From: Nymphaea colorata
Taxonomy: Eukaryota; Streptophyta; Magnoliopsida; Nymphaeales; Nymphaeaceae
Length of the DNA: 64,000 nucleotides
NCBI RefSeq assembly: GCF_008831285.2
Contig: NC_045143.1
Coordinates: 21,228,854 to 21,292,853 of the forward strand
Reading direction: 5' to 3'
The notes beneath the pieces are model-generated. The model worked only from the letters and a program-made list of their open reading frames with translations, had not been told where the DNA came from and searched no databases. A program made the translations under genes and the position numbers. Positions 4,010 through 37,300 of this stretch are shown piece by piece (the first letter of the stretch is position 1; every line of letters begins with the position of its first letter).

Positions 4010-4345
4010 TACTAATCAATGAATTTATGTATACAAAAGATACAAATCTAAGGATATCAACAGATCTTATATGAATCAGATTATCCTTAATTGAATCCAA
4101 TTTTCGGTTATTTACATATTCAGATTCAAATACAAAAAAAAAAATGTCATATGTGAATCCGAAATTCAATTTCACAATCTGCATCCGATCTGATTCTAAT
4201 TTTTGCATTCATATTTGAATCTAAATCTGAATTTGGACCGAAATCAATTGATTTTCAAAATGTAAAAGCATTAGATATAGAATGTCTGTTGAAAAATAAA
4301 TCCGATCTGAATTCGTATCCAAATCCAAATCCAATTGGATGTTGA
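4010..4345. repeat. Degenerate repeat related to the Ac-like hAT subterminal family (reverse orientation)
   Basis: The tract is built from variants of AATCTGAATCCGATC-type words. It shares the segment ATTTTCAAAATGTAAAAGCATT with the reverse complement of 26800-26880. The same vocabulary makes up the subterminal regions of the 17-kb hAT element (7540-7760 and 24340-24660), so it is probably a decayed non-autonomous relative. The terminal inverted repeats are not preserved. Confidence 0.45.
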
Positions 4346-7452: not shown

Positions 7453-7460
7453 GCCATATG
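7453..7460. repeat. Left target-site duplication of the 17-kb hAT element
   Basis: GCCATATG immediately precedes the left terminal inverted repeat and is repeated exactly at 24705-24712. Eight bases is the target-duplication length of the hAT superfamily. Confidence 0.85.
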
Positions 7461-7765
7461 TAGGGATGTCAATGGATTGGATTCATACTGGATATCCATC
7501 CAAATTGCTTTAAAAAGATCAGGTATGAAAAGAAATTTAACATCCCATCAAGAAATCAAATCGGATTTGGATTTAAGAAATAACATCCGATTGGACTCGA
7601 ATTTGAATCCAAACTGTAACTTGATGTCGGAATCCAAACCATAAGCTGATATCCGAATCCAAATTGTAACATGATATCCGAATCCGAACCATGAGCTGAT
7701 ATCCAAAGTGAGATGGTATATGAATTCAAACTGTCACCTGACATCCGAATCCACAATCTTTAGAT
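7461..7765. repeat. Left terminal inverted repeat and subterminal repeats of the hAT element
   Basis: After the terminal repeat, words of the type GATATCCGAATCCAAA and CTGTAACTTGATGTC recur in both orientations about every 30 bases between 7540 and 7755. The same vocabulary occurs at 24340-24660. Confidence 0.65.
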
Positions 7766-7769
7766 GTTT

Positions 7770-8094
7770 TGGGCAAGAGGTCTATCCAAACGTACCAACT
7801 TAACATCATTGTATGATTAGAATGTAAATTTTCTATTAAAAAACCCCTACTAGTTGCTAATGACTTTCATGGAGTTATGAATAATAATGGCCTTATAGTT
7901 GCCATATACAGAATTTGACTTAAAATATTTACAATTACATCATACAAAATAATTTAAATTAATTAATTGACATTTACATTTTTATGTAATCAAGTCAACT
8001 AATATAGTTAAGAAATCAACTAAGCAGGATATCTTAAATAATGTATTTATTTAATTACAAATAATAATGAAAACTTTAATTAAGGAATTTCAAC
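7770..8094. other. AT-rich interior of the hAT element
   Basis: Very AT-rich sequence without a coding region or recognisable repeat. Confidence 0.5.
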
Positions 8095-8622
8095 AAAATT
8101 GACATTTTAAGAAATATGAAAATTAATATCAAATAAATATATTTAATATGAAAAAATTGTAGAACCAATTTGTTTGAAAGATAAACAATTCAATGTGCAA
8201 ATGGATCAATTTATAAGTTGTTGTAATTATGTAATTAAGAAAACTAATATATTAAGAGGGCGAACCCAAAGAGCTAGTGATGATGTGGAATGAATAAAAC
8301 TTTGACATCATTGAACACTCTTTATGCATATGTAAAGCAAATTATTTAATCAACTCAATGAAATGAAAAAATTTCCTTAAACAATGTATTTTGTAATTGA
8401 GAACTAATATGGGTCACCTGATTTAATAATTATCAATAAGTGATAATGAAAAAAAGTTGTCTACTAAATTAAATTTGTTGTTATTTTAAAATATTAAAAT
8501 CATAGTTCAATATGCACAGACAATATGGAAAAGTATGAAAGCCACATGAATAATTTATTTATTCAACAAACTATTTTAAGAATTAATCAAATATATCATT
8601 TTTCTATAGACATGCGACCTGA
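8095..8622 (+). repeat. Left copy of a 530-bp direct repeat bounding the viral block
   Basis: This segment and 18172-18699 have the same length and orientation and differ at only a few positions per 60 bases. They share, for example, AGAGCTAGTGATGATGTGGA and GAACTAATATGGGTCACCTG. The left copy ends where viral reverse-transcriptase sequence begins. The right copy starts just after the last viral remnant. The copies lack the TG...CA ends of LTRs and contain no ORF. A target duplication produced when the viral DNA was captured during break repair would explain them. Confidence 0.8.
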
Positions 8623-8625
8623 TAA

Positions 8626-8750
8626 TAAGTAGCAAAAGGACACAATTCTTCTGAAAACACAGAGAATATCTAGGTGTAGAAATTGGTGAAGGAAAAATTA
8701 AATTACAACCACATATAGCCACAAAAGCTTTAGAATTTGAGGTACATGAA
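8626..8750 (+). pseudogene. Endogenous pararetrovirus reverse transcriptase fragment (copy 1)
   Basis: A short piece of the region C-terminal to the polymerase active site is recognisable (LGVEIGEGKIKLQPHI in one frame, preceded by a frameshift). The same piece recurs at 13220-13315 at the end of the longer reverse-transcriptase remnant. Both copies then pass into the same GA-rich non-viral-looking sequence. Family: Caulimoviridae reverse transcriptase, which copies pregenomic RNA into DNA. The fragment is not functional. Confidence 0.6.
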
Positions 8751-9215
8751 GGGGGCCAAAATTGCACAAAAAAGCCCCGGTTCACTTTTACGGCATGGGA
8801 GGCAGAGGAGAAGAGTGGAAAGGAAAAGAAGAGGAAGGAGGAAAGGAAGAGAGCAGGACAAAGCACTTGTAAGTACTCGATTCGGGGGGGGGGGGGGGGG
8901 GGTGTTGCTAGATGAGGTGGCAGTCGATCGTGTCCAAAAGGTCAAAAAGTGCTATAGTGCGTAATAGTGTCTGCCCCAGTGCTACAGTGCACTACAGTGA
9001 CTGCTACAGTAACTGCCTTCACTTTTTCTCAAATGAGACGCCGCGTGTCTTGTTACTTTCACTTTTTTGATGTGTATGAGATTCTTTCGTCTTTATTTCC
9101 TTTATCTCCACGCAACGTTGCTTTATTTTACATAAAGAAAGTCAGCAACTACAACAATCTTCTAGAGGCTCCTTGAGATGATTTGCCTTAGGATATGACC
9201 CAGTGCTTATCTTAT
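8751..9215 (+). other. Leader-like non-coding segment with repeated CTACAGT words and a G19 run (copy 1)
   Basis: This is homologous to 13316-13930. It contains a GA-rich start, a run of 19 G at 8884-8902 that copy 2 lacks, and several GCTACAGT repeats at about 8951-9015. A CACTTTTTTGA...ATGAGATTC block follows and is also in copy 2. It may be a viral intergenic or leader region, but no tRNA primer-binding site (TGGTATCAGAGC type) is seen, so this is only an inference. Confidence 0.45.
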
Positions 9216-9220
9216 AGGGT

Positions 9221-9496
9221 ATGTCACAGGGTAAATTTTTATTCCAAAAATTTACAAACGTAAAACTCATACTTATCTTGGAGCGTTTTTCCAAGGCAGA
9301 TTTTGAAGTGATAATCTACAATACAAATCCTATTTTTAATTTGGGAGATTTTCCCAAAGATACATTTATTACGTACATTCTCAAACGGATGATGCTTAAG
9401 TTTTACATGGGAAGCACTATACCCATGGGAAGTTTAACTATTACTTGCAAGGGCCAAGTTTTACCGATCCTGGAATTTTACATTTACAAACATTAG
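9221..9496 (+). pseudogene. Pararetrovirus movement protein fragment (copy 1)
   Basis: A 91-codon open frame contains the core that is also present at 14990-15175 (FNLGDFPK, LKFY.GST.P.GSLTITCKGQ). In the second copy this core follows an N-terminal part with the layout of a badnavirus-type movement region, so I assign it to the 30K-type movement domain of Caulimoviridae, which modifies plasmodesmata. The N-terminal half is missing here: about 1 kb present in copy 2 is deleted. The frame is followed within 50 bp by the end of the oppositely oriented ORFX. Confidence 0.5.
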
Positions 9497-9529
9497 GGTA
9501 GGACTCAGCAGCTTCGTCCCTACTCCTTT

Positions 9530-10745
9530 TTAGTTATTTCCCATTTCTTCTACAATCTCTTCTTCATATTGTTCGTTATTATCCCATCCTCCTTCATCAC
9601 CAACATTCCACTTGTCTTCATTGTCATCTCTCTGGATGACTGCTCCAACATTCTGATCGTCACCTGCCCATTCTGCTAGGTTACTATCTTGGACTTGACA
9701 AAAATGTTCACAGATGCCAGGGTTTATACATAAGACACTTTGGTAAGGGATGCAAAATTTTTCAGTAACCCAATTGTCTAGCTTGCAGGGGAAAAAATGA
9801 AGTGTTTATATTGATCATAATTTCCTGTTTTGCTTCATATGGGTATTCATAAGAGGGAGGAACAGATTCAATGTCTAAGTTAACATAACCATAAGGTTTT
9901 ATATCTCCAATTTTGAACATTCTTCTTACCATATATGCCAACCGCCAATGAAAATCAATATGTTTTACTTGCTCTTCTTTGGTAATCATGATCCGGTTCA
10001 AAATCCTTGCTCTAGAAGAGTCTTGGGAGAAAGTTTTACTCCCTGGATATCCTGGTCTTGCCACTTTCTAAGGTTAAGGGTGGCTTGTATAATTGAAAAT
10101 CTTTTTTCACATTCACAGAAAAAATTATCTACATGGTGGTCATGTCTGTATTTAATCAAAGCAAATTCCAAACTAGGCTTCCTCTTTTTTGAATTTCATG
10201 CTATTGTCCTTTGTAGATTCTTCATATTGACTTGTTCTTTCCTTTTTGCCTTCAGCACCAAACTATAGATCTGCTCCTTGACTTGTGGAATATTTGGGGG
10301 AACCATCTCCCTTTTTTCTCTTAATTTTCTGATTTCTTCCTCAGCGTATTCCCTGAGGATTCTGTTTTCTGACTCTACAGCTTGTATTTTTTCATTTAGC
10401 TCTTTGTTTCTTTCTTTCGCCAACTTATCTCTACTTGGGCTGCATTTAAGCTTCTTTCTAGAGTAAGATAAGCATCCAGGCTTTGCGGACAGAGGGGTAT
10501 ATGATCCATGGAGAGTTTTGGATTGAAGTTGCTTGTTATTTAGGTTTAAATGGCTGGCTAATAAGGAAAGGATTTTTAGGTATGAGGGATTTCATTTTTT
10601 TTGCCAGAGCTTGTCTAGAAGGATGGATATGGTCATTTAAATCAAGGATGAGGCCTGGTGAGGTTCGAAACACCAAATTTGGATGAGGAGAAAAGATTGA
10701 TAATCATAGGTCTGGGTCAAGAGGCAATTGGCTCGTAGAGGCCAT
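9530..10745 (-). pseudogene. ORFX, unrecognised coiled-coil ORF linked to the pararetrovirus (copy 1)
   Basis: The ATG is at 10745 (MASTSQLPLDPDL, then a stop) and the final stop is at 9530. Between them the frame is broken several times. Visible parts are an N-terminal segment matching copy 2, a charged coiled coil (10196-10423, for example NEKIQAVESENRILREYAEE), a CECEKRF...LRKW segment, a WRLAYMV...GYVNLDIESVPPS block and an acidic C-terminus ending EEEMGNN-like. Copy 2 at 15229-16534 has the same order. It lies downstream of RNase H on the same strand, the place occupied by ORF4 of tungroviruses and the transactivator of caulimoviruses. The tungrovirus product also has a leucine zipper, but I cannot show homology. 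Function unknown. Confidence 0.55.
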
Positions 10746-10858
10746 CTTGTCCTGTAGTAAGAAAAATGATAAGTGAAACAATGCATTCTATATTGTCTAG
10801 CATAGTTAATGTCTATGTGGAGATAATTTAAATCATTCCTACATGATGTGGGGTATAG
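10746..10858 (-). other. Conserved leader of ORFX (copy 1)
   Basis: The sequence before the ORFX ATG shares ATAGACATTA...TAGACAATATAGAATGCATT with the corresponding region at 16555-16620. The leader is therefore part of the original unit and not a chance junction. Confidence 0.5.
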
Positions 10859-11095
10859 TTATCTGAAACCAATAGAGGAATGACATGAGGATGCTCGAAC
10901 TCTTACTTGTTTCATGGCGGCGACTAACTGTTGCATACTTAAGAGAACATCTAATAAGTTATCACTAACTTTCCTTATTTCAATGGAGAAGGCATGGTCA
11001 AGGTCATGTAGTCTTTCTCTAGATTGGTCAAGATAGCTTATATTTTTATTAAGTCTTCTAATCTCGGATTCATAAACATCAATGTCTCTATTCAT
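10859..11095 (-). pseudogene. Short coiled-coil ORF between RNase H and ORFX
   Basis: This is a 78-codon frame on the minus strand directly after the RNase H remnant. The product is charged and heptad-like (ESEIRRLNKNISYLDQ, then RERLHDLDHAFSIEIRKV), so a coiled coil is likely. The start methionine follows the RNase H region by only a few codons. It may be the C-terminal tail of the polymerase polyprotein or a small separate ORF. No second copy is seen. Function not known. Confidence 0.4.
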
Positions 11096-11515
11096 CTTTT
11101 TTATGTCTACTTAACATATCGGCTGGACAATTGTCTTCTCCCTTTATGTATTCAAATGTCACTTTATAATTCTGATTTATAAGGGTATCTTTAAAGGATA
11201 TCCATCTTCTTTAGCTTCTTTTTTTTGAATTCTTATTTTCATAGAATTTTACAATAGCATCACAAACTGTTCTAACTACTATTTCTTTTTTATTGAGCAA
11301 AAACAAGCGAAAACTGTTTAACCCATGTATTACAGCAAGGATTTCCTGGTCTATACTACTAGAAAGTCCTTTTTTTTTTGTAGTGGCCATTGTTGTATCT
11401 GCAAATGACCTCTGCTACTTTGGAAGCATATTTGTTGGGCTTCCTTTTTAACACTGCTCCCCATCCATTAACACATCCATTCGTTTCAATTATTAAAGAA
11501 ATCTGAATCTAAAAG
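11090..11515 (-). pseudogene. Pararetrovirus RNase H domain, broken, with altered catalytic residues
   Basis: Translated on the minus strand, the first strand reads IETNGCVNGWGAVL, where the usual catalytic Asp is Asn (codon 11479-11481). After a frameshift follow SSIDQEILAVIHGLNSF with the conserved Glu, then VRTVC with Val where an Asp is usual, then FEYIKGEDNCPADMLSR with the C-terminal Asp. An in-frame stop lies in the basic KKRS.RRW segment. This is the type-1 RNase H fused to reverse transcriptase in Caulimoviridae, which degrades the RNA template. Two of four catalytic acids are changed and the frame is broken, so it is inactive. Confidence 0.75.
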
Positions 11516-11539
11516 GAGTTACATATTTCGAAAGCTTTA

Positions 11540-11869
11540 GCTAAGATAGAACATAAACATGAACATAAATTGAAACATAGATCAGGAAGTAGTGACCACT
11601 CATGCATATTTTGTAATGGGTGTCCTACTATAGAACTTAGATTACAATGTAAAATTTGTATGGCTGAAACATGTAAATTCTGTTTGGAAGAAAGACTGTA
11701 TCAATTTATTCTAGAAAAGACTACAGGACAAAAAGATGACACTATAGATAAAATAATCCTTGTAGCAGAAAATAGAATGGATGACATAGAAAAAGCACTA
11801 GCTGCAGTAGAAATAAAGATAGGATCTTTAGAAAAGAAAGTAGTACAGCTTGACCCAACAGGATCCTAG
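11540..11869 (+). pseudogene. Badnavirus-type coat-protein C-terminal cysteine-rich domain
   Basis: The open frame has Cys spacing C-X2-C-X11-C-X2-C-X4-C-X2-C at 11603-11683 (CIFCNGC...QCKICMAETCKFC). That exact spacing is the second cysteine-rich motif described for badnaviruses and tungroviruses and is absent from most other caulimovirids. A charged, helical segment follows (VAENRMDDIEKALAAVEIKI), then a stop at 11867-11869. The sequence upstream of 11540 is the inverted RNase H remnant, so the N-terminal coat domain has been lost from this copy. Confidence 0.75.
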
Positions 11870-12445
11870 ATGCCGAATACCAACAACAAAGGTAAAGGCA
11901 TAATTCTAGAAAAAGGTGAAAGACCATTGACCACAATAACTTTTCTTAATGTGAATCTTGACCATAAAGAACAAAGGAGAACATCTATAAGAATTCCTTG
12001 TATATTCAAAACAGAGAAGTGAAAATTAGAAATAGATGCCTTAATGGACACCAGATGTAGTGTTTTTGTTAGATAAAGTGTTAGTCCCTTTAATATATTA
12101 TAGGAAGCTAGACCCTGCCTCTCAATTTTGGGTAGAACAAATGGACGGATATTTGCATAAATATGATGAAGAGATATGTAAATATAAAATAGCTTCTAGG
12201 ATCTCATAGAAGAGCATACTGCCTACCAACCAGGGCCCAAGACATTTATCAAATATATGCAATTGTATGATAGTACAAAATGCATTATAGGACTAAATTT
12301 CATTCTGAGAAATATGGCTGGATGTGTCATCACTAGGAAAGGCCTTTCTTTTCTTAATAATCAAATCCCTTGGGTAACAAAAAGAAAACCAGATGAAAGT
12401 AAAGTTTGTAAATGTAAACTTCCAGGAGCCTGTAAAGAAAGATAG
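11870..12445 (+). pseudogene. Pararetrovirus aspartic protease region, broken
   Basis: After several stops the protease active site reads IDALMDTRCSVFV, with the catalytic DTG changed to DTR at 12047-12055. A later conserved block (STKCIIGLNFIL, about 12278-12313) is the C-terminal part of the retropepsin fold. The open part 12257-12445 ends in a cysteine-containing tail. The family cleaves the viral polyprotein. With a lost active-site Gly and frame breaks this copy is dead. It lies between coat and reverse transcriptase, the normal badnavirus order. Confidence 0.6.
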
Positions 12446-12447
12446 AC

Positions 12448-13315
12448 TTGGCATACTTAGAAGAAGAAGATGACCTAGATGATTTAGAAATGACTCTTGA
12501 ATATAGTCCTATAGATATGCAAAAAATTTATAATAAACTAGAAACATGTGGCACAAAAATAGATGATTTACTCAGAATATTAGAAAAAGAAGAAATTGTA
12601 GGGGAAATACCTACAAAACAGTGTGATCGTAATAAATAGAATGCATATTACAAATAAAAGATTCAAGATTTACTATTTCCAATAAAAAGATAAATACTAC
12701 TAATAAAAATATCAAAGATTTTGAGACACATATAAATGATTTATTGAAACTAGGAGTCATAAGAAGAAGTATAAGCCCCACAGAAGCCCTGCTTTTGTTG
12801 TTAACAAACACCGTGAACAAGTTTGGGGAAAATCTAGAGTTGTCATAGATTATAGACAACTATACAATAGACGACTCTTATGACATACCCAACAAAACTG
12901 AATTAATCAATAGCATACAACATAGTAAAATATTTAGTGCAAATCTGGATTTTTATAGATAAAAATGCATAAGGATAGTATTCAATGGACTGCCTTCACT
13001 TGTCCTTTAGGAAATTTGAATGGTTGGTCATGCCTTTCAGCTTGAAACATGCTCCTGCTACATACCAATGAAAAATGGACTTGGTATTTGGCCAATATAA
13101 GGGATTTGCTTGCATTTATATAAACAATATCCTCGTCCATAGTAAAACCCAACTAGAACATGTAGGCCACCTAAGAATAGTACTTGGAGAACTTTTACAA
13201 AATGGAATTACAATCAATAGCAAAAAGGCACAATTCTAGGTGTAAAAATTGGTGAAGGAAAAATTAAATTACGACACATATAGCCACAAAAGCTTTAGAA
13301 TTTGAGGTTCATGAA
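12448..13315 (+). pseudogene. Pararetrovirus reverse transcriptase, broken, YxDD changed to YINN
   Basis: An acidic linker (12448-12639) leads into the polymerase. The N-terminal finger motif (LLKLGVIRRSISP), the VVIDYRQL block in another frame, motif B (FEWLVMPFSLKHAPATYQ, followed by a stop) and the catalytic strand YINNILVHS at 13117-13128 are visible. The canonical double Asp is double Asn. At least three frame changes and several stops interrupt it. It ends in the fragment that is duplicated at 8626, with the RNase H missing. Order and motifs fit Caulimoviridae polymerase. Confidence 0.75.
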
Positions 13316-13944
13316 GGGGGCCGGATTTGCACACAAAGCGCTGGTTCGCTTTTCCAACATGGGAGGCAGCGGAGAAGAGTGGAAAGGAAAGGAAGAGGAA
13401 GAAGGGAAGGAAGATAGCGGAACCAAGCACTTGTAAGTACTCGATAGAGGGTGTGGAAGTAGAAGAGGATGATCAATACAAACGCCAGGGTGGTGCTTAT
13501 ATAGGCACCGGACTTCAAAACAAATTACAACTTGAGAAAGGAATTGGATTCCTTTCCGAACAAACTAAACACTAACAAACAAAAACTGTTATATTCGAAG
13601 GAACTCGAAAGAGAACAACTGTTGTGTACTAGATGAGGTGGCAGTCGATCATGTCCAAAAAGTCAAAAAATGCTACAGTGCATAATAGTATCTGTCGCAG
13701 TGCTACAGTGCGCTGCGGTGACTACTACAGTAACCACCTTCACCTTTTCAAAAACGAGAAGCTGTGTGTCTTGTTACCTTCACTTTTTTGACACGTATGA
13801 GATTCCTTCGTCTTTTATTTCCTTTATCTTCACGCAACATTGTTTTATATTACATAAAGAAAGTTGACAACAACAACAATCTTTTAGAAGCTCCTCACGA
13901 TGATTTGCCTTAGGGTGTGACCTAGATCTTATCCTCAAAATAAC
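13316..13944 (+). other. Leader-like non-coding segment with promoter-like TATA (copy 2)
   Basis: This is homologous to 8751-9215 but longer. It has a GA-rich start, a TATA-like word in GCTTATATAGGCACC (about 13497-13511), GCTACAGT repeats at about 13672-13735 and the ATGAGATTC block. The G run of copy 1 is absent. It precedes the inverted repeat at 13945 and the small ORFs, which suits a viral intergenic or leader region. The ORF at 13327-13575 is not convincing as a gene. Confidence 0.4.
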
Positions 13945-14045
13945 CTTTTGATTTCTAAGCCGTGTCTGTTTAAAAACTTAACAATATTAGATACACTATA
14001 TCAAATACATTTACACTAGTTAAAGTTAGAATTAAATTTGTGATT
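13945..14045. repeat. Left arm of a 100-bp inverted repeat in the viral block
   Basis: The sequence around TTAACAATATTAGATACACT matches the reverse complement of 17640-17740 with few differences. The arms enclose 3.6 kb containing the small ORFs, movement protein, ORFX and coat remnant. Confidence 0.7.
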
Positions 14046-14110
14046 ACTTATTAAGCAATATAAAAGGACTTATTTTACTTAACTTATAAGATTTTCTATC
14101 ACACCATCAT

Positions 14111-14221
14111 ATGAATAGATTAGAATATTTGAATCCAGAAACATACCCAAAGCATAAGACACTAAAAACAAGCAAACTTTACAAATCATGTCTGTTTTTA
14201 TTATACTTATTATATTTTTAA
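14111..14221 (+). CDS. Small viral ORF1 (36 codons), intact
   Basis: The frame opens at ATG 14111 about 50 bp after a TATA-like TATAAAAGG (14058-14066) and ends with TAA immediately followed by the ATG of ORF2 (TAAATG). The product starts MNRLEYLNPETYPKHKTL and ends in a hydrophobic run of Leu, Tyr and Phe that could insert in a membrane. Badnaviruses and tungroviruses have small ORFs in this position, usually longer than this. No homology can be shown for so short a peptide, so the assignment rests on position and compact spacing. Confidence 0.4.
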   Translation: MNRLEYLNPETYPKHKTLKTSKLYKSCLFLLYLLYF

Positions 14222-14555
14222 ATGGGTGATAAAGAAGACATCTACATAGAGAGTCCAAAAGACACAAGAACCTATTACCCAGATACCGAAGGACTAAGCA
14301 AATATGATCCAACTAGCAATTCTGATGAAATAATAGTTGGACAATTAAACATGATAATTATTATGATAACAAAATTAAGCCAGAAAATTAGCCAACTCGA
14401 ACGAACTTTTGGTAAAAGACCAGATCCACACAGAGCAAATCTAGATGAACTAACAAAAAACTAGACAATCTAAATATAGGAAATGGTGGAATAAAACACA
14501 CCCTACTCCTAACCCTATTCCCAAAAGTATTGCTTTTCTAGAAGATAGAAGATAA
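14222..14555 (+). pseudogene. Viral ORF2-like (virion-associated-type) frame with one frameshift
   Basis: The first 80 codons are open (14222-14464). The product is acidic at the N-terminus and has a heptad-like segment (GQLNMIIIMITKLSQKIS). A shift in an A-run near 14457 moves into a second frame with a basic, proline-containing tail (KTHPTPNPIPKS) that stops at 14553-14555, overlapping the next ATG by one base (TAATGA). The coiled-coil plus basic-tail layout and the stop/start overlap are features of badnavirus ORF2, whose product associates with virions and binds nucleic acid. The assignment is by architecture only. Confidence 0.45.
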
Positions 14556-15186
14556 TGACTACAAGACATTCCTTTTCCTATATTAGTAGAACCCTTAGTA
14601 ATACTAATGAAATAAGACAGATAGATGAGAATCTATTAACTAGAATAATCCAAAGTTAAGGTCCTAGCTCCATAACGTTAGAAGAAATAATAGATGTAAA
14701 TAGAGATTTAAAAATTTACAATAGCTATCAGTTAACCCTATTAAATCCAAGAACATTATATAGGACAGGCTTTTGGAGCATAAATCCGCAATTAGTTAGG
14801 ATAAGTAGAGAAGAAGAAGTTTGTGTAACTACTCAACATCAAAATATTGGCATCGTGAGTTAAGAAAGTATTAATCGATTATTCCAAAATCATAATAGGT
14901 TTATTCATCTTGAGTTAATAATTATCAGAATTAAAGGATTAGCTAGAAGAAACTTAGCGACAAAAGTTTAAATCACTTTTCCAAGGTAGGTTTTGAAGTG
15001 ATAATCTACAACACAAATCTTATTTTTAATTTGGGGGATTTTCCCAAAAAGAAGTTTATCACGTACCTTCTCAAATGGATGATGCTTAAGTTTTACATAG
15101 GAAGCACTGTACCCATAGGAAGTTTAACCATAACTTGCAAGGGTCAAGTTTTACCGAACTTGACAAACATTAGGCTGCTGGGTTAA
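14555..15186 (+). pseudogene. Pararetrovirus movement protein region (copy 2), broken
   Basis: The ATG at 14555 overlaps the ORF2 stop. An N-terminal part with stops (35th codon and later) includes LLNPRTLYRTGFWS and FIHLELIIIRIKGLARR. A frame change near 14985 leads to the core FNLGDFPK...LKFYIGSTVPIGSLTI. The arrangement at the start of the large ORF matches badnavirus ORF3, which opens with a 30K-type movement domain. The coat domain that should follow is missing. Instead the sequence meets ORFX in the opposite direction within 45 bp, exactly as in copy 1. Confidence 0.6.
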
Positions 15187-15228
15187 GGACTCAACAACTC
15201 CATCCCTACTTTGATTAAATAATGTCTA

Positions 15229-16534
15229 CTACCATGCTGGGTCCATTTCTTCTTCAGTATCTGAGTGCTCGTTGAAGAAGGGAACCGTCAAAGCACAGTC
15301 TTTACCATGATCTCCTAGTTCATGAATTTGCCATCCTGTATTGTTTTGGGCAAAATGATCTCGTAATCCTGGCTTCATGCAAATATGGTTTTGAAAGGGT
15401 ATGACCATGGATACATCCTTAGAGTCAAAAACATATATTCTGGTATTCCTATCTTCTACAATGAGGCTATGTGGGTGTTGCCATTTTTTCAATTGTTGTG
15501 ACATCTTGAATTCTCTCCATCTTGTGAGCTCATCATACCATTCGTCTAAAGGTGCTCCTGGCACTTTTGTAAGAGGCAGGGTAACTTGTGAAGGGGTAGC
15601 AAAAGAATATGTCCAGATAACTATTTTTTGTTTTTCGTCACACATATAATTATGTCGGAGGAACTACATCAATTTCTAGATTTACAAAGCCTTCTGTAAC
15701 CCAGTCGTTACTGAATATTTGTTCTACTATGTGAGCTAGACGCCAATTGAACCTTATCATACGAGTCTGTTCTACTGCTATTACGATAATCTTTTTTAGG
15801 TATTCTTGTTCCATGAGATTCTGTAAAGAAATATGCATATCAAACACCTCCATATCTGTCCATTTTTTTAGATTACTGCTTGTTAAGATGATCCCAAATC
15901 CTTTATAACATTCACAAAAGGAATTGTCTACATGTTTTTTCTGCTGAAATTTGACTAGGCAGAATTTTAGTCCCTTTTTTCGTAATCCAAAGTTTCTGGC
16001 AAGGAATCTTAATAAATCTTGGATACGTCCTTGCTCCAACCTTTTCTTCTGGAGTACTATTTTGTAGACCTATTCTTTTACTGTGTCTATTTTCAGGGGA
16101 AAGCTTTGTCTTTTTTCTTCCCACTGTTTTTCCATTTTTTTCCCACTGCTCCTTTAGTAATTTTGCTTTGGCTGTTGACTGCTTCAATTTTTCAGTCATA
16201 TCTTCTAATGTTTCCTTAGATAGATTTAGTTCTTTACAAGTATCTTTCAACTTTAGGTTCAGTCTAGAAAAACAGGGGTTTGGGTAGGATCGAGAAAGAG
16301 CTTGATTTGGCTTTGTGTATTCTTTATGCTGAGGTAGGTTGCCAAGATGCTTAGAATTTTAGAAAATGTTAGGTTTTTCCTATTGTGCCAAAGGTTGTCT
16401 AATAAAACATGGTCTTTTTGGTCAAGGGTCATGCCGGGTAGAGTTAGGAAAGAAAGATTGGAATCTGAAGGAAATATAGGCAAACCTAGATCTGGGTCTA
16501 TTTGGACTAGTTGGGTTTGATTGGAAGAGGCCAT
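15229..16534 (-). pseudogene. ORFX, unrecognised coiled-coil ORF linked to the pararetrovirus (copy 2)
   Basis: About 435 codons run from ATG 16534 to TAG 15229-15231 with three frame breaks (segments 16534-16259, 16250-15912, 16039-15650, 15645-15229). In order it has an N-terminal region (MASSNQTQLVQIDPDLGLP), a coiled coil (KETLEDMTEKLKQSTAKAKL), a basic KKTK segment, CECYKGFGII...NLKKW, FNWRLAHIVEQIF...GFVNLEIDVVPP and an acidic end (EHSDTEEEMDPAW). Copy 1 has the same order and a shared leader. No domain is recognised. Its position after the polymerase in copy 1 suggests a viral accessory protein. Confidence 0.6.
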
Positions 16535-16840
16535 ATTTCTTGAAACAAAACTTTATATTAGGTAAAAGAATGCATTCTATGTTGTCTATTGTGCCTAATG
16601 TCTATTCACAAAATATCAACAATTCTAATCATATAATGCAAAAATCATTTAAACAAACTACTAGTCACCATTCATATTATCTAACATGTATTGTAGGTTG
16701 GTTGAAGTTGACACTTTGTTTTGGACTTCTTCACCATACTTTTTGTTTGATTCGAGTATATTGTGACTGATGCGACTATTAACGCATGGTTCTTCATCAG
16801 AGGAATTATCATGACATGGATCACCTATTGAAACAATGCT
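16535..16840 (-). other. ORFX leader and coat-protein C-terminal tail
   Basis: The part at 16555-16620 carries the leader shared with copy 1 (TAGACAACATAGAATGCATT on the minus strand). The rest continues an acidic coat-protein tail (for example DNSSDEEPCVNSR). Confidence 0.4.
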
Positions 16841-17640
16841 ATAAATGCTTTTTGTATCACTAATATATTCATCTTAGGCTAGTACATCTTCATTTACATA
16901 GTTAACTAAGATTGAGGCTTTATTATATAGATTGTTTTGTTTAGAACAATCTCTAGCTAAATATTCAGGAATTCCACAGGTAAAGCATGTTAATTTGTTC
17001 TTATAATCTCGCTGGGTATTATATTTGCTAACCAGTCTATGTTTGTCTAGGTATGGCTTCCTAGCATTATATTTTCAAAGGTAATATTTTCTCCTTTTGT
17101 CTTTTGTTTTATATGTTTTTGAGCGTCTAGGTTCTTTATCATATCTTTGTGGTGCATATATTTGTTTACAAAAACTATATTCTCCTTTTAATTGTTGAGT
17201 AATGGTTATTTCAGTACACTTTTTACCAATTCATCGATAATAAATTGGATCCTTATGCTAATGTTATCTAATTGAGGTATTTGTTTCTTTTTCTTTGTAT
17301 TTTATATGAATTTCAGAACCCAATGGATTTGGTAGTTTAAGAAATAAGTTTTCTCCTATTTTCTTATTATAAAAACATCGTGATAAAGAGCTATATTAAA
17401 AGAAATCTTGTAAAAAAGGTTTTTATATATCACCAGTCTTTGATTTGGAGTTGTTCTAATTTTCTAATCGAATTTTGCTTTTGTTTATCAAATCCTATGT
17501 TTGGTTGATATAATAATAGGAGTAATTGTATTTTATTTGTAAAATTATAAATGTTTTTTCCTCATAGAATTTCTTTTTGTAAGTCTTGAGGATGTTCTCC
17601 TAAAGACTTTTCTGCCCAAGTATATTAAGAATTCTCGAAT
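16841..17640 (-). pseudogene. Pararetrovirus coat protein, broken
   Basis: Fragments in all three minus-strand frames match the conserved core of caulimovirid coat proteins: a KLEQLQIKDW.YIKTFF block near 17440-17490, a KLPNPLGSEI-like block near 17330, and a zinc knuckle CFTCGIPEYLARDC at 16946-16987. In the knuckle the usual His is Tyr, and the first Cys of the badnavirus-type C-X-C-X2-C pattern is Leu. Frameshifts and stops are numerous. It lies upstream of ORFX with protease and polymerase deleted between them. The family forms the bacilliform or isometric capsid and binds pregenomic RNA. Confidence 0.6.
17207..17285. repeat. Inverted repeat arm within the coat remnant
   Basis: The sequence around TCGATAATAAATTGGATCC is repeated inverted at 17880-17955 nearly without change. 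It corresponds to part of the coat reading frame, so a coat fragment was duplicated in the opposite orientation. Confidence 0.8.
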
Positions 17641-17740
17641 TTACTTCTAACTTTAACTAGTGTAAATGTATCTGATATAGTGTATCTAATATTGTTAAGT
17701 TTTTAAACAGACAAGGTTTAGAAATCAAAATGTGTGCTAA
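17640..17740. repeat. Right arm of the 100-bp inverted repeat
   Basis: Reverse-complement partner of 13945-14045. Confidence 0.7.
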
Positions 17741-17879
17741 TTTTAACTAGTTCAACTATTGGATGAAAGATAATGGAGAAAACAGATGACGTAAATCCCA
17801 TTCATGTTCATTTAATTTTGTGATTTCAACACCATAAATGTCATTTGTATTTATACAAACTTGAGACTTGTACCCCATC

Positions 17880-18000
17880 CAGTTAGATAACATTAGCATA
17901 AGGATCCAATTTATTATCGATGAATTGGTAAAAAAGTGTACTGAAATAACCATTACACGACAATTAATGTATGAATATAGTTTGTATAATGTAAAGAAAA
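17880..18000 (+). pseudogene. Inverted duplicate fragment of the coat protein
   Basis: In the plus direction the frame reads DNISIRIQFIIDELVKK, the same coat segment found on the minus strand at 17207-17285. It is a short remnant near the right boundary of the viral block. Confidence 0.6.
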
Positions 18001-18080
18001 AGAGTAATTGTTTAAAGTGTACCCCATTCAGTTAACATTAGATATTTAAGGTGTACACTTTATATGAATTGTATACTTTA

Positions 18081-18157
18081 GATGAATGGTATGTGAGCTC
18101 ATCATGCCATTCGTGTGAATATCTAGACGAATGGTATGTGAGCTCATCATACCATTT
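18081..18157. repeat. Two 31-bp units derived from ORFX at the edge of the viral block
   Basis: GATGAATGGTATGTGAGCTC at 18081 and GACGAATGGTATGTGAGCTC at 18126 begin two units with a 45-bp period. The second contains TGTGAGCTCATCATACCATT, identical to 15523-15542 inside ORFX. Each unit is nearly palindromic. They mark the last viral-derived sequence before the right direct repeat. Confidence 0.6.
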
Positions 18158-18171
18158 GATTAAATTTATGA

Positions 18172-18699
18172 GAATTGGCATTTTCAAAAATCTGAAAATT
18201 AATAACAAATAAATATATTTAATATGAAAAAATTGTAGAACTAATTTGTTTGAAAGATAAACAATACAATGTGCAAATGGATCAATTTATAAGTTGTTGT
18301 ATTTATGTAATTAAGAAAACTAATATATTAAGAGGGCTAACCCAAAGAGCTAGTGATGATGTGGAATGAATGAAGATTTGACGTCGTTGAACACTCTTTA
18401 TACATATGTAAAGCAAATTAGTTAATCAACTCAATGAAATGAAAAAATTTCCTTAAACAATGTATTTTGTAAATGAGAACTAATATGGGTCACCTGATTT
18501 AATAATTATCAATAAGTGATAATGAAAAAACGTTGTCTACTAAATTAAATTTGTCGTTATTTTAAAATATAAAAATCATAGTTCAATATGCACATACAAT
18601 ATGTTAAAAGTATGAAAGGCACATAAATAATTTATTTATACAACAACTATTTTAATAATTAATCAAACATATCATTTTTGTATAGACATGCAACCTCAT
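18172..18699 (+). repeat. Right copy of the 530-bp direct repeat
   Basis: Same orientation as 8095-8622. The copies diverge by scattered substitutions only, which suggests they were once identical. Confidence 0.8.
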
Positions 18700-21340
18700 A
18701 AAAATTTTATTCAGTTGATAAAATAGTTGTTTAGATAAGTATTTAGAAAAAGAGAATAACTTAAAATTTCCACATCGGGAATTAAACCCAAGTTTTATTA
18801 AACTATTTATGTAGTTACAACTATTTAGTTAAACTAACTTATGCAATCAGTGAATGCATCAAGGAATGTTCTTTGCAATAGCTTAGCCTTCGTGAGAAGG
18901 AGAACGACTCAAATTCGCTCTCGTTTATAAAACAATCGAGCTCGAATTTAACGTATACTTGAATTGTTAAACAAGTCAAGTTTGAGTTATAAGAACACAA
19001 CTCAATTAAGCTCGCTTGGCTGGACTTGTAATTAAACCAATGTTGTCAAAATTATTTTTTAAATCAAATCAAAAAGTTAAAAAGTTCACAGTATCAATAA
19101 ATCAAATTAGAATAAGAATTAAAATGGGATACCAGGCCAGGGGCTCGTCGGGCTTTCAGGAAGACAGGCCTAGACCTTGAAAATGCACTGAGGGCAACTG
19201 TGCCTTGCAAGAAACCCCACCGCACTTGGGCTCGTGCTTGGGTTGACATTTGGCCGAGTCTTATTTCAGTTATTTTTATTAATTTTAAATGTAATTATAT
19301 ATATATATGCATATAATATAAATATATTAATTTTTCATACTAAATTTGAAATGTGCCCAACCACACTTAATTGAAATCACTTGTGAAATGGGATGGTTAA
19401 AAATGTATTTTGATTAAAAAAAATTTAAAAGTATTAAAAAATAAAACATATATTAAAAAAATTTAAAAGTGATGTAAAAGCTTTATCATATTGAAAAAAA
19501 ATGGTAAAGAAGCTTCACACATATTCCCCTTTGGTTGTAAAAAAGTTTTTCTTTCTATTGGTGGTTGATGTACGTTTCGTTTCTTCCTCAGGAAAGAGGG
19601 ATTGCTGAAAGAGAAGGATAACAATGGAAAGAGTGACACTCTTCCTCTCTCTCTCTATTCTTTGTGTTCCTTGTTTAGTTGTTTTTTTTTTTTTTTTGCT
19701 ATTTGTTTTGTTCTTGGGTTGATTTTGCTCTTTGTTCTGTTCTTAGGTTCTCTCTCAAACATTTTTTTTTGTTTTGTTCTGTTTGCTCTTTGTTCTGTTC
19801 TTGGGTTGTTTCACTTCTGCCTTTTTCCATGTATGTTCTTTCTTCTGATGTTAGTTTTTGTGGCAAAGCTGCATGTTTGAAAAAATGTTTGGTTCTCATG
19901 AACAAGTATGATTTCTTGATCTAAAGTTTTATAACTACAAGAATGGGAAAAAAATCTTGGGGGTACTAAAGATAGAGGAGCCATAACTTTTAATGATCAT
20001 TTGAAGCCAAAAAACATTATTAGCAGAGCAATGATTAGATATATTAGATAACTACATGAATTCTTGATGCTTGTGCAGCCAGATCTAAATTTTTTATGCT
20101 AAATTGCTAATGGTAGCTTGTTGTTGATGAGTCCAAGGACATGCATGAGAAATAGTGTCGTCACTTCCTTTTCGTTGACTTGACGTTTGAATTGTCGATC
20201 ATTTGATCTTGATACGGCTTGTGCTTTTATATAGAATTGTTCATTGTATGCTTGTTTAAATGCTGGTTTGGTACCATAATCATGTAGTGTCTGTTCCATT
20301 GGGTTTTTTTTTTAATTTTTATTTCTGCAAAGTACTGTTTTTCTTTGGCAAGACATGAATCACATGATTCATCAGTAAGCAATGAGTTACTAATTTCCTG
20401 TTTCTGTGTTATTATTTAATTTACTAATACTCCCCTTTCTGTTTGCTTAGTTTCATTTTTTGAAACAAGCTAGATTCCATTAATGAATGGCTCTCATAAT
20501 TTTTAAAATGTATGCTTGCCTTCTTCTGCTTCATATTTCCTTCTCATGTTCTTTTCGTCTATGAATTGTTTGAATAACAAGTATGAATGAGGTGAGAGGT
20601 ACTTATTATCTGTAAATGCTTAGGGGCCTTTTAATCTTGGGCTATGTGTTAGATGCTGTTCATCTTAGCATCAATTGCTCTAGATCTTTATGTGGACCAT
20701 CCAAAGCATAAGGAATCCATGAATGGTCCTTAATGCCCTTTGTGGTGGATGGGGGGCGTCCAAGGGACTCTTCACTTGATCTCCACCCTCACATGTTATA
20801 TTTAGCTTGACTCTTATAAAATGATAATTTCACCAAAAGGCATCAACATCTATGAGTTCAAGGATTCATGGAATATTTTTTGTCTTCAGCCTTTGGCCTT
20901 TATTTTTTGGCCGATACTACTATTTTATAATCCCATTTTCTTGCTTTCTGCAGAACTATATAATTGTAGAGTAAATTGTGTATGGTTGAAGTGGCTCGTT
21001 AGTGTTTGGGGTGATTTTGATGTGAATGGCAATAGGCCTTTACGGTACAATAAACTTTGTTTTTCTATTAGTTCTTATCTAATAGAATTTTAGATAAATT
21101 TTATATTTATGTGACGTATCTTGTCAAAATCTCAGCATGGCTTAGTAGAGAAATATTTTAGGCAGGCCTAGACAAGCAAGAAAAGTAAATAAAGGAAAAA
21201 AAATATTGACGATGATGGAGGAGGCAGAGGAGAAGATATTCGACAACCAAAAATAGGTTTGTTTCTCTCTACATCCATGAACTTTGCAAGTGTATGTTAT
21301 TTCTTGTGAAGTATTAGATGTTCAACAATTTTACCGTTTG
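18700..21340. other. AT-rich interior of the hAT element with repeat remnants
   Basis: At 18885-19040 there is a GCTCGAATTT-type repeat. At 19130-19260 there is a GC-richer fragment with GGGCTCGTCGGGC wording. At 19725-19806 a TGCTCTTTGTTCTGTTCTT word is repeated. The pyrimidine-rich part at 19600-19830 could be the leader or first intron of the transposase gene. No separate gene is recognised. Confidence 0.4.
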
Positions 21341-21348
21341 GTAATTCC

Positions 21349-23510
21349 ATGTCAAAAAGCATTAATCTTGCTAACACAGAATCAAGAGATGATAGTCATC
21401 AAACTCCTCAATTGGTAAAATATTTATTTAATTTTTTTGTGGGTTTATCATTAATTATTCATTTACTTATTTCTATTTTTTATATATGCAACATATGGAT
21501 TCTACAATATCTAGTGCCAATGTTTCTAGTTTTGTCTCTGCTAACAATACAGAAACTGACATGCTTCTTATAAAAGCCAAGTCACTAAGATCAGCTATAT
21601 GAAAGGAGTTTAGCAGGACAATAAACGAAACAGGTATTCAACGTACTTTTTGTCAGTACTGTAAGGTGTCAACTGATTGCAATTGTAAGATGAGCACCAC
21701 ACATTTAAAGAATCATTTAAAGGCATGTCCTAACAAACCTAACTTAGAACTAGGCCAACAACGACTTGCCATTGGTGGAAAGACTAATGATGGAAAATGT
21801 ACTATTGGTACTTTCAAGTTTAATTCACATAAAAGTTGACTTGATTTAGCTAATATGATGATTTTTCATGAATATTCATTTTGTATAGTTAGTCATTCAA
21901 GCTTTCAAAAGTTTATTAAAGGATTGCAACCACAGTTCAAACTATTGTCACGTAACACTATCAGATCAAATTACATACACATTTATGAAGATGAAATGAC
22001 AAAATTACATAATAGTTGGACAAGCTTAATAGGAGGATTAGTCTCACATCTGACATAAGGACTTCATCTTGTCAGAGTTGCCATTTTTGTTTAATTGCAC
22101 ATTACGTTGATAATAGTTGGGAAATACAAAAGAAGGTTCTCAACTTTGTTACTGTTGAAACACCTCATATAAGAGAAAAACATGCATCAATCATCAAAGA
22201 TTGTTTATTAAAATGGAACATTGATCGAAGTTATTTTCAGTTACATTAGATACTTGTTCGACAAATGGTATCAGGGTTATAAAATCAATAGAGTGGCTTC
22301 TTGAAAAGGATGCACTTGTTTGTAATAGAATTTTTTTTTAAGTTAGATGTGCTCTCATATTCTTAATTTGGTTGTGCAAGATGATGTCAAAGAAATAAAT
22401 GATGTAATTTACAAGATGAGACAAAATATTAAATATATCAAGGAATCTCCAACTCGATGTGAAATTTTTGATCGAGCAACGAGTCATGTCAAAGTTACTT
22501 ATGAAAACAAATTATGTCTTGACGTTCCAACCAGATGGAACTCAACATTTCTTATGCTTGATGTAGCTTTACAATATAAAGAAGCTTTTGGTAGTTTCCA
22601 AGAACTTGATTGTCATTATTATTCGACACCGACTAAGGACGAGTAGAAGAGAACTACTATTATTCAAAACAGTTTAAAAATATTTTTTATAATACTACTA
22701 ATGTCATTTCCACAATAAAGTATCCAACCTTTAAGAGTTCCGTGAGATAAAGATGGAAACTGAAAAATGTTTTCAAGTTCAGATATTTGCCTTTCAAATA
22801 TGGAAATGAGGATAAAAACAAAGTTTGACAAATATTGAGATATATGTAATTTAATTCTAGCAGTTGCAGTGGTTTTTGATCTTCATTACAAGTTAAAAGT
22901 AATTGAGTTTATTGTAAACAATTTTATAAAGATGAAGTATATAGATATGTCTCTGCAATGAAGAACTACATTTGTGATCTTTATGAGTAGAATAAAACTA
23001 CTTATGCATCGAAGACACTCTTTACTGGTTATATTGTTGATGTTGAGAAGGATCGTGATGCATCTAGCTTTACTTCTTGATTGAATTTTCTTCTCATAAG
23101 AAGCCTAGAATAAGTGTACTAGATGACTTTATTGAAGAATCATTACAGTGCTAACGCACAAAATCAGCATGTGAGCTTTGTGAGTGATTGCACAAAGAAC
23201 TCGCAAAGCTTATCAGACTTTGCTTTGGCTCTGCTTACAGTTGTGTGCTGACCTTTCAATTGCACAAAGCATAGATTTGGAATTGTATTTGGAAGAACCT
23301 ATTTATCCAAAAAACAATCCTATTGACATTTTGATATGGTGCAAGGTCAATGCACCTAAATACCCATTGTAATCTAAAATGTGATATTTTTGCTCTTTCT
23401 ATATCATTTGTCGCATCAAAGTTAACATTTAATATAGGTGGACGTATTCTTGATTTAAACAAAAGTAGTGATTTGTGCGTAAGATTGGTTGCGGGATCAG
23501 GCTAAAGGTA
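21349..23510 (+). pseudogene. hAT transposase (BED finger, RICESLEEPER-like), decayed
   Basis: Parts in order: a short first exon; a BED zinc finger at about 21585-21735 (TFCQYCKVS...THLKNHLKACP) with a stop just before it; MIFHEYSFCIV and LLSRNTIRSN; SDIRTSSCQSCHF, the first catalytic-Asp block with Trp changed to Arg; a second Asp block reached only after a frameshift near 22245; CSHILNLVVQDDV; LDVPTRWNSTFLML at about 22520-22560; and the C-terminal dimerisation region ELYLEEPIYPKNNP (about 23275-23320) with stops after it. The order and motifs are those of plant hAT transposases. Many stops and shifts rule out function. It belongs to the enclosing 17-kb element and has the orientation expected for its source gene. 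Confidence 0.8.
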
Positions 23511-24335
23511 ATTAATTTATTATTAATGTTTTTAAACATATTTTTATGTTTCTTATTTATTCTTTTCGTAGATTATTCTGATTTGCCTACATCTTTGCCT
23601 AAAAAAGAAGCGCCATTTGTATCTGTATACTTTGAAACTGAATTATAAGTTAGAGATGTATATTCTTTTGTACCTATATGCTTTCTTTACATCAATTAAA
23701 ACCTATAATTATTTGTATCTAAGATGTTTATTTAGTTGCAATTTTCATTTGCATAATGCAAGTTAATTTGATAGCATTATCCTCAATATAGTGTCAACAT
23801 GGTTGAAGTATATATCAACATACAAAGAACACATCGATTGTGGCAAATGGAGATATTGAAAGAAAATTTTTGCAAGCTCATACTATATGGTGAGATGTTT
23901 TTTTTTTTATTGAATTTGTCAAGGATGACTCGTCTAGTCTCTTGTTGCATCAGCAAACAACCACCAATTATAATTTTGAAAATTAAAATTTGTCTACTCT
24001 AGAGAATGAAGATTGATGATATAGTGTAATTGATACATACTTTTTTGTTTATTCTTTCTTCCTTTTTTTCGCTCTCTCTTAATCAGCTTGACAATTATCA
24101 TTAGCTGAGTTTGGGCTAGTGTAAGGTTAAGATTGAGTTTCATAGTTCATTTAGTGTTTACTGTATATTTTTCATACATATTACTTTTATAATTACTTGA
24201 ATACATTTCCTCATTATTTACTCATTACTTCAATATTGGTACACGTTAAAAAAATAATTTTTTGGCTTATTTTATTATATTTGGCTAGTATCCAAATTAT
24301 GAATGTGGATACATATTTTTAAAATTTCACTAATT
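23511..24335. other. AT-rich 3' interior of the hAT element
   Basis: No coding region beyond short chance frames. Presumably the 3' untranslated and spacer part of the hAT element. Confidence 0.5.
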
Positions 24336-24339
24336 AATA

Positions 24340-24704
24340 AAATTACATTTCGAATCTGATAGTATTTAAGAGTTAGATTTGGATCAAATTTCCATATTGC
24401 TTAAAAGTCATATTCCTATCAGATTTAGATGTGACTTAAAAGTCGGATTTAGATGGATTCAGACATAACTTAAAACTCGGATTTAGATCAAATTTTAATA
24501 TAACTTAAAAGTTGGATTCGGATTGGATTCAAATATAACTTAAAAATCGGATTTGGATGTAGTTTTTGAAGTCGGATTTAGATATGGTATAAGCTTTTTT
24601 CATCCAAATTCAAATCCAAATCCGAATCTGAATATATGAATATCCGAAAAATCGGATATGATAAAAGGTATATCTGATCTGAATCCGATCCATTGACATC
24701 CCTA
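24340..24704. repeat. Right subterminal repeats and terminal inverted repeat of the hAT element
   Basis: Words such as AACTTAAAAGTCGGATT recur at 24395-24570, followed by CCAAATCCGAATCTG words. The terminus CCATTGACATCCCTA is the inverse of the left end. Confidence 0.7.
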
Positions 24705-24712
24705 GCCATATG
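24705..24712. repeat. Right target-site duplication of the hAT element
   Basis: GCCATATG, identical to 7453-7460. Confidence 0.85.
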
Positions 24713-26583: not shown

Positions 26584-26998
26584 TAGGGATGCCAATATAT
26601 CCGACTTAGATTAGATATCCTATCGAACCATTTCTAAAAAATCAGGTATGGAAAACAATTTAATATCTGATTAAGCGGATCAGAATCAGATTTAAAGAAT
26701 GACTTTCGATTGGATTCAGATTCAGATATACATAAATATCCGATCAAATATAGATATAGATTCGGATCAGATTTATTTATTTTTTATAAAATTCCATATC
26801 CAATGCTCTTACATTTTGAAAATTTGCCAAATTTGGTTTAAAATTAGGATTCAGATTTGGATATGAACATAAAAAATAGATTTGGATTTAGATTAAGATA
26901 TGAATTTTCTTTGTTTATATTGGAATCCGAATATATGAATGTCCAAAAAAGTGGATATGGTGATGGGTAAATCTAATTCGAATATGATCTGTCTCAAT
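26584..26998. mobile_element. Degenerate non-autonomous relative of the Ac-like hAT family
   Basis: It begins TAGGGATGCCAATATATCCGA, close to the left terminus of the 17-kb element, and continues with AGATATCC and GGATCAGAATCAGATTT-type words. The right terminus is not recognisable. It shares a segment with 4010-4345 in inverse orientation. Confidence 0.5.
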
Positions 26999-26999
26999 T

Positions 27000-28200
27000 A
27001 AATTTATAAGGTAGATTTTATCCTCTTCTTACAAACATCACTATGCAACAATAACTTGCAGACATCTCACCCCAAAAAGCCTGTATAAAGCTAATTCTGG
27101 ATGCTTCTAGCATTTGCAAATATTATTTAATGAACCAACATGATGGAGTGATCGGTATCGACCTAAATCCTTGAACAAAGGGCACTACAAAACTTAAGTT
27201 TATCAAGAAAAACAATTCAAAATTCAATGAATTGGAAAAAGAAGCTTCAAGTGCATCAACTTGAAATCTCCAATGAGCCAGACGCATATGCATCAGGCAT
27301 CGAAATATAATTTATATTGGCTTGTAAACCTAGATATGAATGAACTTTGGTATCATATCAAATTTCATCCAAAGAATGACAAGCCCGGAACCTTAATCAA
27401 ATATAATTTTTGTTGGTCTGTTACCCAAGCTAGAAGAAAGTCATTTTTTATAACAACAAAACATAAACCTATTTTACAAAACTTTTTTTTAGACAATATT
27501 TATATTCGTTTTTGCTAATACTGAGTAATAACATTACCACTGACATGGGATACGTTAGATTACTTTCTGTACAATTTGGCCCATTATTAAACATGCTTCC
27601 AACATTAAGGCTGGCAAGTTATTTATTGACTCAATATTTATATATCTCGACAAGCTATTAATGGTAGACCTGGATGATTCAATCTTCTCTGATCTCCTCA
27701 TTCATTGTTCTGTAATGAACAATTAATTTTTGCACTGGATGGGGATAGTGAATATGAGAGAGTGCATGTTGTTGAGTTTTCTGAATTGGATATTCAAGTT
27801 ACAGTTACATTTAACTGCGTTTACCATTTTACCTGCACATTCATTCCCATGCACTAGGTCCAGTTCGTTGCGTGAAAAAATCTGAAATTTTTATTATAAA
27901 AAAATTTAGTACAATTGAATATTTTTCGGGAAGAACAAGCGCTGACAATTAAATATCTAATCCAGTACATATTTTTAAATAAATAATGAACGCTATAAAC
28001 ACATTTAATTGTTTAAATTGGTGTTGGTAAGCGAGTCCTCCAGATTGTGTTCATCATAGGAGTCTATTGTGAGAAACTAACCAAAATCCATATTAATTAA
28101 TACAGAAATAATATATCTCTTCTTAGGTGTTATAGAGACCATACATTAGATTCATGAGCATAAGTATTGTCTTGAGCATGTGGTGTGGTAAGGGAAGTAA
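27000..28200. other. Intergenic stretch, no gene recognised
   Basis: An 85-codon plus-strand frame at 27261-27518 has no recognisable domain and AT-rich codon use. I do not support it as a gene. Confidence 0.4.
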
Positions 28201-37160: not shown

Positions 37161-37300
37161 TCCAGACTTAAAACTTTATATTATATTCTCTTGTTGCTTG
37201 TCATCAACCGGGAACGAGACAGAGAGGGGTGGAGGGCTATATCCGGCAACTTCTTCGGGTCCTGTGAAAAAGAGAGAGAGAGACAGAGAGCTGCTTCTCC
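37161..37300 (+). promoter_or_regulatory. Probable core promoter and GA-rich leader of the lectin kinase at 37301
   Basis: A TATA-like tract (TTTATATTATATTC, about 37172-37185) lies about 115 bp before the ATG, and a GAGAGA-rich leader covers 37268-37290. Similar GA-rich leaders precede the other lectin-kinase start at 143. The transcription start is inferred, not seen. Confidence 0.4.

Follow-up and report, generated by a model that had tools for sequence, protein, structure and literature searches.

A caulimovirid block between duplicated segments of an Ac-like hAT transposon in Nymphaea colorata, most likely captured during break repair

Investigating a window of 64,000 nucleotides from Nymphaea colorata (contig NC_045143.1, positions 21,228,854 to 21,292,853 of the forward strand; plain positions below count from its first letter), we observed that the interval 7461-24704 is one Ac-like hAT transposon enclosing a block of endogenous caulimovirid DNA. 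A hAT element of about 7.2 kb here holds 9.5 kb of virus between two copies of a 543-bp segment of its own, and the virus most likely came in as filler during the repair of a staggered break, after this copy had split from its relatives. The duplicated hAT segment on both sides of the virus is absent from the account given in the initial annotation of the window, which had been made from the letters alone and which proposed that the transposon might have mobilised viral DNA and might spread it. Our best reading is that hAT elements of this kind captured viral DNA repeatedly while breaks in them were being repaired, with a hot spot and a mechanism that we infer from the comparisons below; it is likely that virus DNA landed more than once in one part of the element, and not that the element transported it.

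Elements of the hAT type are defined by their terminal inverted repeats, an 8-bp target duplication and a hAT dimerisation domain. The inverted ends of the window element are identical over 17 bp and agree over 25 bp with one mismatch, as had been described initially; the terminal 17-mer has exactly two exact occurrences in the 64 kb, inverted to each other, and three matches when up to three mismatches are allowed (0.29 expected). The exact 8-bp duplication GCCATATG likewise adjoins both ends as first described, and counts as evidence because of this position, since the 8-mer alone is not rare (four occurrences in the window vs 1.46 expected). Between 7461 and 24704 no inner hAT end was found at up to two mismatches, and the end pair recurs in a related copy without virus, so both ends belong to one element; the case in which they stem from two separate elements, foreseen as a refutation, thus falls away. 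With ends starting TAGGGATG, the 8-bp target duplication and the dimerisation domain, the element resembles other plant Ac-like hAT transposons, and it differs from them in its length of 17.2 kb, which is due to the viral block and the extra segment copy, and in its decayed transposase. Its size had been called unusual against the 2-5 kb common for hAT elements; this holds for the full span, but without the virus and the extra segment only about 7.2 kb (coordinate sum) is left.

The transposase remnant announced for the interval was recovered as two pieces matching the Pfam domain Dimer_Tnp_hAT, with E 4.8e-4 (20.3 bits, cut-off 21.4) and E 0.054, and the stretch 21284-23167 aligns at 80.5% with a hAT copy on C13 (C1, C2 and so on denote contigs). 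Its N-terminal piece has no Pfam match, and a 99-amino-acid open reading frame (ORF) in the middle gave weak unrelated Pfam matches only and no match in PDB. Having many stops and a frame change in its own transposase, the window element is not autonomous. On each side of it lies a short, degraded hAT-like relative whose subterminal repeats are similar (26584-27000 and 4049-4340); clear target duplications were not seen in either.

What the element looks like without virus can be read from its relatives in the genome, which we searched over 407,766,735 bases on 783 contigs. The left end (248-bp query) has at least 58 matches (40 of 1103 candidates scored), the best-scoring of which after the window, among the matches listed, is 75% identical; the hAT family therefore is large, and a near-twin was not seen among these matches. 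The check proposed at the outset, a search for an element with the same termini and no virus, led to a copy on C8 (left end C8:5744742) of 5,072 bp with both ends and its own exact 8-bp duplication, ACCACAAC. This copy contains the segment once, continuous with the right arm, and serves as reference ("ref") for the segment coordinates given below. The right arm begins at, or within 1-2 bases of, the segment end at C4:3679, C6:14492, C13:15277, C7:4175, C2:23928 and C8:5743. An 828-bp query for the segment gave at least 81 matches (40 of 252 candidates scored), among which we counted 18 close loci; this count is our own reading of the match list and a lower bound, part of the loci having been read further. 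Four of the 18 contain virus (C6, which is the window, C7, C5 and C4:3679543-3688103), and 13 have no virus-sized break across the 828 bp (C13 with about 0.4 kb extra and C4:6607 with a loss). Another, L046 (C8:8142400-8143900), carries a direct tandem duplication of ref 1020-1314, the copies being 94.9% alike with no virus between them. One further close copy, C1:7482685-7483647, surfaced only in the junction and right-arm queries, and at C1:7623269-7624265 hAT left ends are repeated in a short tandem array, with five matches about 180-190 bp apart.

In the window, the segment copies are 93.8% identical where 8097-8628 is set against 18173-18704; aligned to a hAT copy, the right one reaches back to 18162, which puts the start of the left one at 8086. 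Two direct repeats of about 540 bp flanking a block with reverse transcriptase (RT) and RNase H might be taken for the long terminal repeats of a retroelement containing the viral block, a reading to which we give next to no probability: the repeat lacks a TG start and a CA end, the one primer-site pattern tried gave two-mismatch matches only, at chance level and none after the left copy, and the same segment belongs to virus-free hAT copies, which rules this reading out. About 227 bp of the reference (ref 914-1140) are missing from both window copies, so this loss is older than the duplication. The 120 bp before 18162 have no match to the viral loci compared at length; a repeat within them is similar to 15510-15551 of the block itself, on which account we take them as probably viral.

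The 9.5 kb of virus said to lie inside the hAT element are indeed there (8629-18161), recognised by matches to RVT_1 (E 1.3e-4, below the Pfam cut-off), RT_RNaseH (E 2.1e-5, above the cut-off) and the caulimovirus coat domain PF22909 (E 2.2e-6, 28.4 bits vs a cut-off of 27, in a single 43-amino-acid piece); a zf-CCHC match in the coat region is weak (E 0.12). Neither integrase nor movement protein was matched among the viral pieces given to Pfam, a subset of all pieces. RT and RNase H run in the same direction, about 165-205 bp apart, in 11 other RT loci read; in the window the former lies on the plus and the latter on the minus strand, hence the block is rearranged. It also contains partial internal duplications (8669-9211 with 13235-13933, and 9287-9467 with 14977-15157). 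The virus is multi-copy, as its RT stretch has at least 44 matches in the genome (40 of 51 candidates scored). The RNase H piece has no relatives in IMG/VR; an IMG/VR match of the RT piece (one 6-kb locus, L001) was judged to be due to chance, because the further matches of this locus to the viral pieces were weak and scattered. For one viral ORF neither protein relatives nor a phage match were found, and Pfam gave nothing usable on the first ten ORFs. The viral stretch 8906-9780 also occurs in local arrays at C2:32041482-32063212 and C10:13029138-13051410, with six matches each within about 22 kb, several of the C2 copies being spaced about 4.4 kb apart. From Nymphaea, solendovirus-like and yendovirus-like RT sequences (PMC9794742) as well as a lineage named OTU 21 (PMC13308828) have been reported.

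The order of events can be approached through the two segment copies, ages being relative only. They differ from each other at 36/541 sites (94.2% identity by pairwise alignment over 531 sites), and 12 other hAT segments with at least 400 comparable sites differ from them at 51/541 sites (9.4%) or more; the virus thus probably entered after the lineage of the window copy had split from its relatives. Segments with shorter overlap differ from the window copies at 9/63 (C7_1), 16 and 21/142 (C5l) and 28 and 31/254 sites (L046a), the C4 pieces and two outgroups having been left out of the count. Ten derived sites are common to both window copies and 16 and 17 are private to one of them, from which it would follow that the duplication and the virus have been present for roughly 60% of the separate history of this copy, a rough figure from few sites. 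In a 12-sequence tree the window pair has a support of 95, and in a 21-sequence tree one of 80, with 68 for the pair plus a short C4 piece. The paired segments of the other loci are 95.7% (C4, 139 sites), 94.9% (C8:8142, 294 sites), 92.1% (C7, 214 sites) and 89.2% (C5, 586 sites) identical.

The idea that the transposon mobilised and spread viral DNA found no support. A query with the left hAT/virus junction (40 of 58 candidates scored) was crossed by one match of 40, the window itself, 11 matches covering hAT only and 28 virus only; no second site with this junction and a separate target duplication was found among the 40, and the junctions of the other virus-holding copies differ from that of the window. 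Furthermore, the flanking segments split from each other after the lineage of the element had left the other compared copies. We thus found no sign of hAT elements spreading virus. A single later cut-and-paste jump of the loaded element is possible and would be compatible with the unique left junction, since cut-and-paste leaves no second copy. That the virus entered the hAT element at an earlier site, and that the loaded 17-kb element then moved here with the viral DNA, nevertheless seems unlikely to us: the entire block does lie within one end pair with an exact 8-bp duplication, and a mover that leaves no copy behind agrees with the unique junction, but the scored matches include no second copy of that junction, the element's own transposase is now decayed, and the differing junctions of C4, C5 and C7 would each need an entry event of their own anyway.

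In these three further hAT copies, caulimovirid DNA likewise occupies the AT-rich zone and is bordered by direct hAT segments that overlap one another, so that the search for more virus-bearing copies suggested with the initial annotation was successful, although their junctions are not those of the window. Two of them (C7 and C5) were recognised among ten left-end loci, of 57 non-self matches, mapped over about 20 kb each; virus was sought there by blastn with the viral block of the window, a query that would miss viruses as distant as the one in C4. The C4 copy was found through its interrupted segment. Its insert is 7.7 kb long, with about 2 kb read at each end; one end contains Peptidase_A3B (E 3.3e-9) and RT (E 7.8e-13) pieces, which are 66-70% identical in DNA to the virus family of the window where aligned and thus belong to another virus, and the other end gave no recognised viral match in the 2 kb read. 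The hAT stretch repeated to the left and right of the insert covers ref 834-1606 in the window, 724-932 in C7, 643-1215 in C5 and 879-1036 in C4. In its coat, RT and RNase H pieces, its multi-copy nature and its AT-rich insertion site, the virus of the window resembles other endogenous caulimovirids; the difference is that the insertion-site DNA at the four loci is hAT sequence duplicated over 158 to about 573 bp. Overlapping direct hAT segments around the inserts at four loci, each of which a single crossover would fit, could also result from a viral circle that had acquired a hAT piece (for example after a hAT jump into the circle) and recombined homologously into chromosomal hAT copies. We regard this as quite improbable, because the segment borders differ across the four loci, at least two different viruses are involved, and hAT sequence was found in the 1.5-kb flanks of none of the 12 RT loci read, the window's own included.

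Capture in place would run as follows: a staggered break would occur in the AT-rich core of the hAT element, the broken ends would be joined on few shared bases with viral DNA caught between them as filler, and fill-in or copying would leave a long direct hAT duplication around the viral DNA. We infer both this mechanism and the time order; both the short stretch common to hAT and virus at the left junction and the tandem duplication without virus at C8:8142 are consistent with break repair. Schiml et al. in 2016 reportedly described tandem duplications after adjacent single-strand breaks in plants; these are similar in being direct duplications at a repaired break, and the link to viral capture is one that we suggest. 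For endogenous caulimovirids, entry by break repair with viral filler and microhomology is a widely held idea, the entry of their DNA into plant chromosomes is described as speculative, and (TA)n flanks, tandem arrays and rearrangements have been noted (PMC10377300); the available part of this source makes no mention of long target duplications at caulimovirid insertions. In florendoviruses, short stretches can be gained or lost, and the flanks in grape showed very little redundancy (PMC4241990). A virus joined with a DNA transposon is also known from Teratorn, a 180-kb composite in medaka with a piggyBac-like transposon (PMC10175614), from which our case differs in that the transposon is a hAT element and both transposase and virus are decayed. 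By titles and abstract openings, we found no report of caulimovirid DNA inside hAT copies in the literature on endogenous pararetroviruses.

As to whether this zone is a hot spot, GC content falls to 0.20-0.29 between ref 600 and 2000, against 0.31-0.41 in most other bins; bins of low GC occur at ref 2201 and close to the right end as well. All four duplicated intervals lie within ref 600-2000. With random placement of these intervals on the 5,072-bp element, a common point has a probability of 0.032 for the three loci not found via the segment and of 0.0018 for all four. Virus interrupts the 828-bp segment stretch in 4/18 close loci. A right-arm stretch of 866 bp served as control (40 of 134 candidates scored). 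There, 11 non-window copies are unbroken and a 12th is so as far as position 703; C4:2547 and C10:9309 are matched in adjacent pieces, C6:9770 in pieces separated by some additional DNA, C1:7443 and C5:4247 stop early, and the second C7 copy ends within the stretch, with viral matches about 1 kb further.

It should also be noted that several observations weigh against capture in place and against a hot spot. At the window site, capture in place would look no different from a late jump of the loaded element. The four-locus probability is biased, as C4 was found because its segment was interrupted, and the difference between the segment and the right-arm control is not decisive, so that the numerical claim for a hot spot is weak. 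The C4 insert is mixed and not purely viral: its non-viral end (L044 801-1997) matches two places of a C14 locus (L020, L021) at 75-86%, a composition which would also fit filler DNA. C7 is a complex array: its second hAT copy breaks off at ref 1998, virus is matched from about 1 kb beyond that point, and then a third hAT copy follows, beginning close to its own terminus. Finally, the C5 segments are, at 89.2%, no closer to each other than to other copies (2 shared and 35/26 private sites), so that virus entry and the hAT burst may be of one age there, or two hAT copies may flank the insert.

The features of the element are collected in Table 1. Elsewhere in the window, two lectin receptor kinase genes, each one open frame with Lectin_legB and kinase domains, lie in opposite directions at 37268-39316 (+) and 60766-62931 (-) and are about 72% alike in DNA; decayed pieces of a LINE-like retrotransposon are found at 46051-49596 (-), with RVT_1 below and zf-RVT above the cut-off.

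Table 1. Positions of the hAT element, its duplicated segment and the enclosed caulimovirid block in the window
Feature	Position	Strand	Remark
Target site duplication, left copy, 8 bp, GCCATATG	7453..7460		abuts left inverted end
Left terminal inverted repeat, 25 bp, one mismatch vs right	7461..7485	+	
hAT left arm with subterminal repeats (25/50-bp repeats at 7605-7704)	7461..8085	+	relatives on many contigs
Duplicated hAT segment, left copy, 543 bp	8086..8628	+	
Left hAT/virus junction	8622..8628		hAT homology to 8628, viral homology from 8622, overlap at most 7 bp
Endogenous caulimovirid block, rearranged, pieces on both strands, partial internal duplication	8629..18161		
Decayed RNase H pieces, inverted vs RT	11088..11508	-	RT_RNaseH E 2.1e-5
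Decayed reverse transcriptase pieces	12436..13239	+	RVT_1, piece from ORF 13072-13239
Decayed coat protein pieces with zinc-knuckle-like motif	16874..17395	-	Caulimovir_coat_dom, piece 17264-17395
Duplicated hAT segment, right copy	18162..18704	+	
hAT right arm	18705..24704	+	in virus-free copies directly adjoins segment end
Decayed hAT transposase, many stops, at least one frame change	21284..23502	+	80.5% to C13 copy
Right terminal inverted repeat	24680..24704	-	
Target site duplication, right copy, 8 bp, GCCATATG	24705..24712		abuts right inverted end

The at least 18 close hAT loci, with and without virus, provide paired sites before and after insertion together with duplications dated in relative terms, as a test of break repair requires, and the mobilisation idea is directly testable in relatives. 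More tentatively, and with somewhat less than even confidence, we suggest that the AT-rich core of the hAT element is a break-prone trap, which during infection repeatedly captured DNA of at least two caulimovirids, every such event leaving a long direct duplication of transposon sequence; if this is true, the hAT family would be a dispersed recording site for viral DNA.

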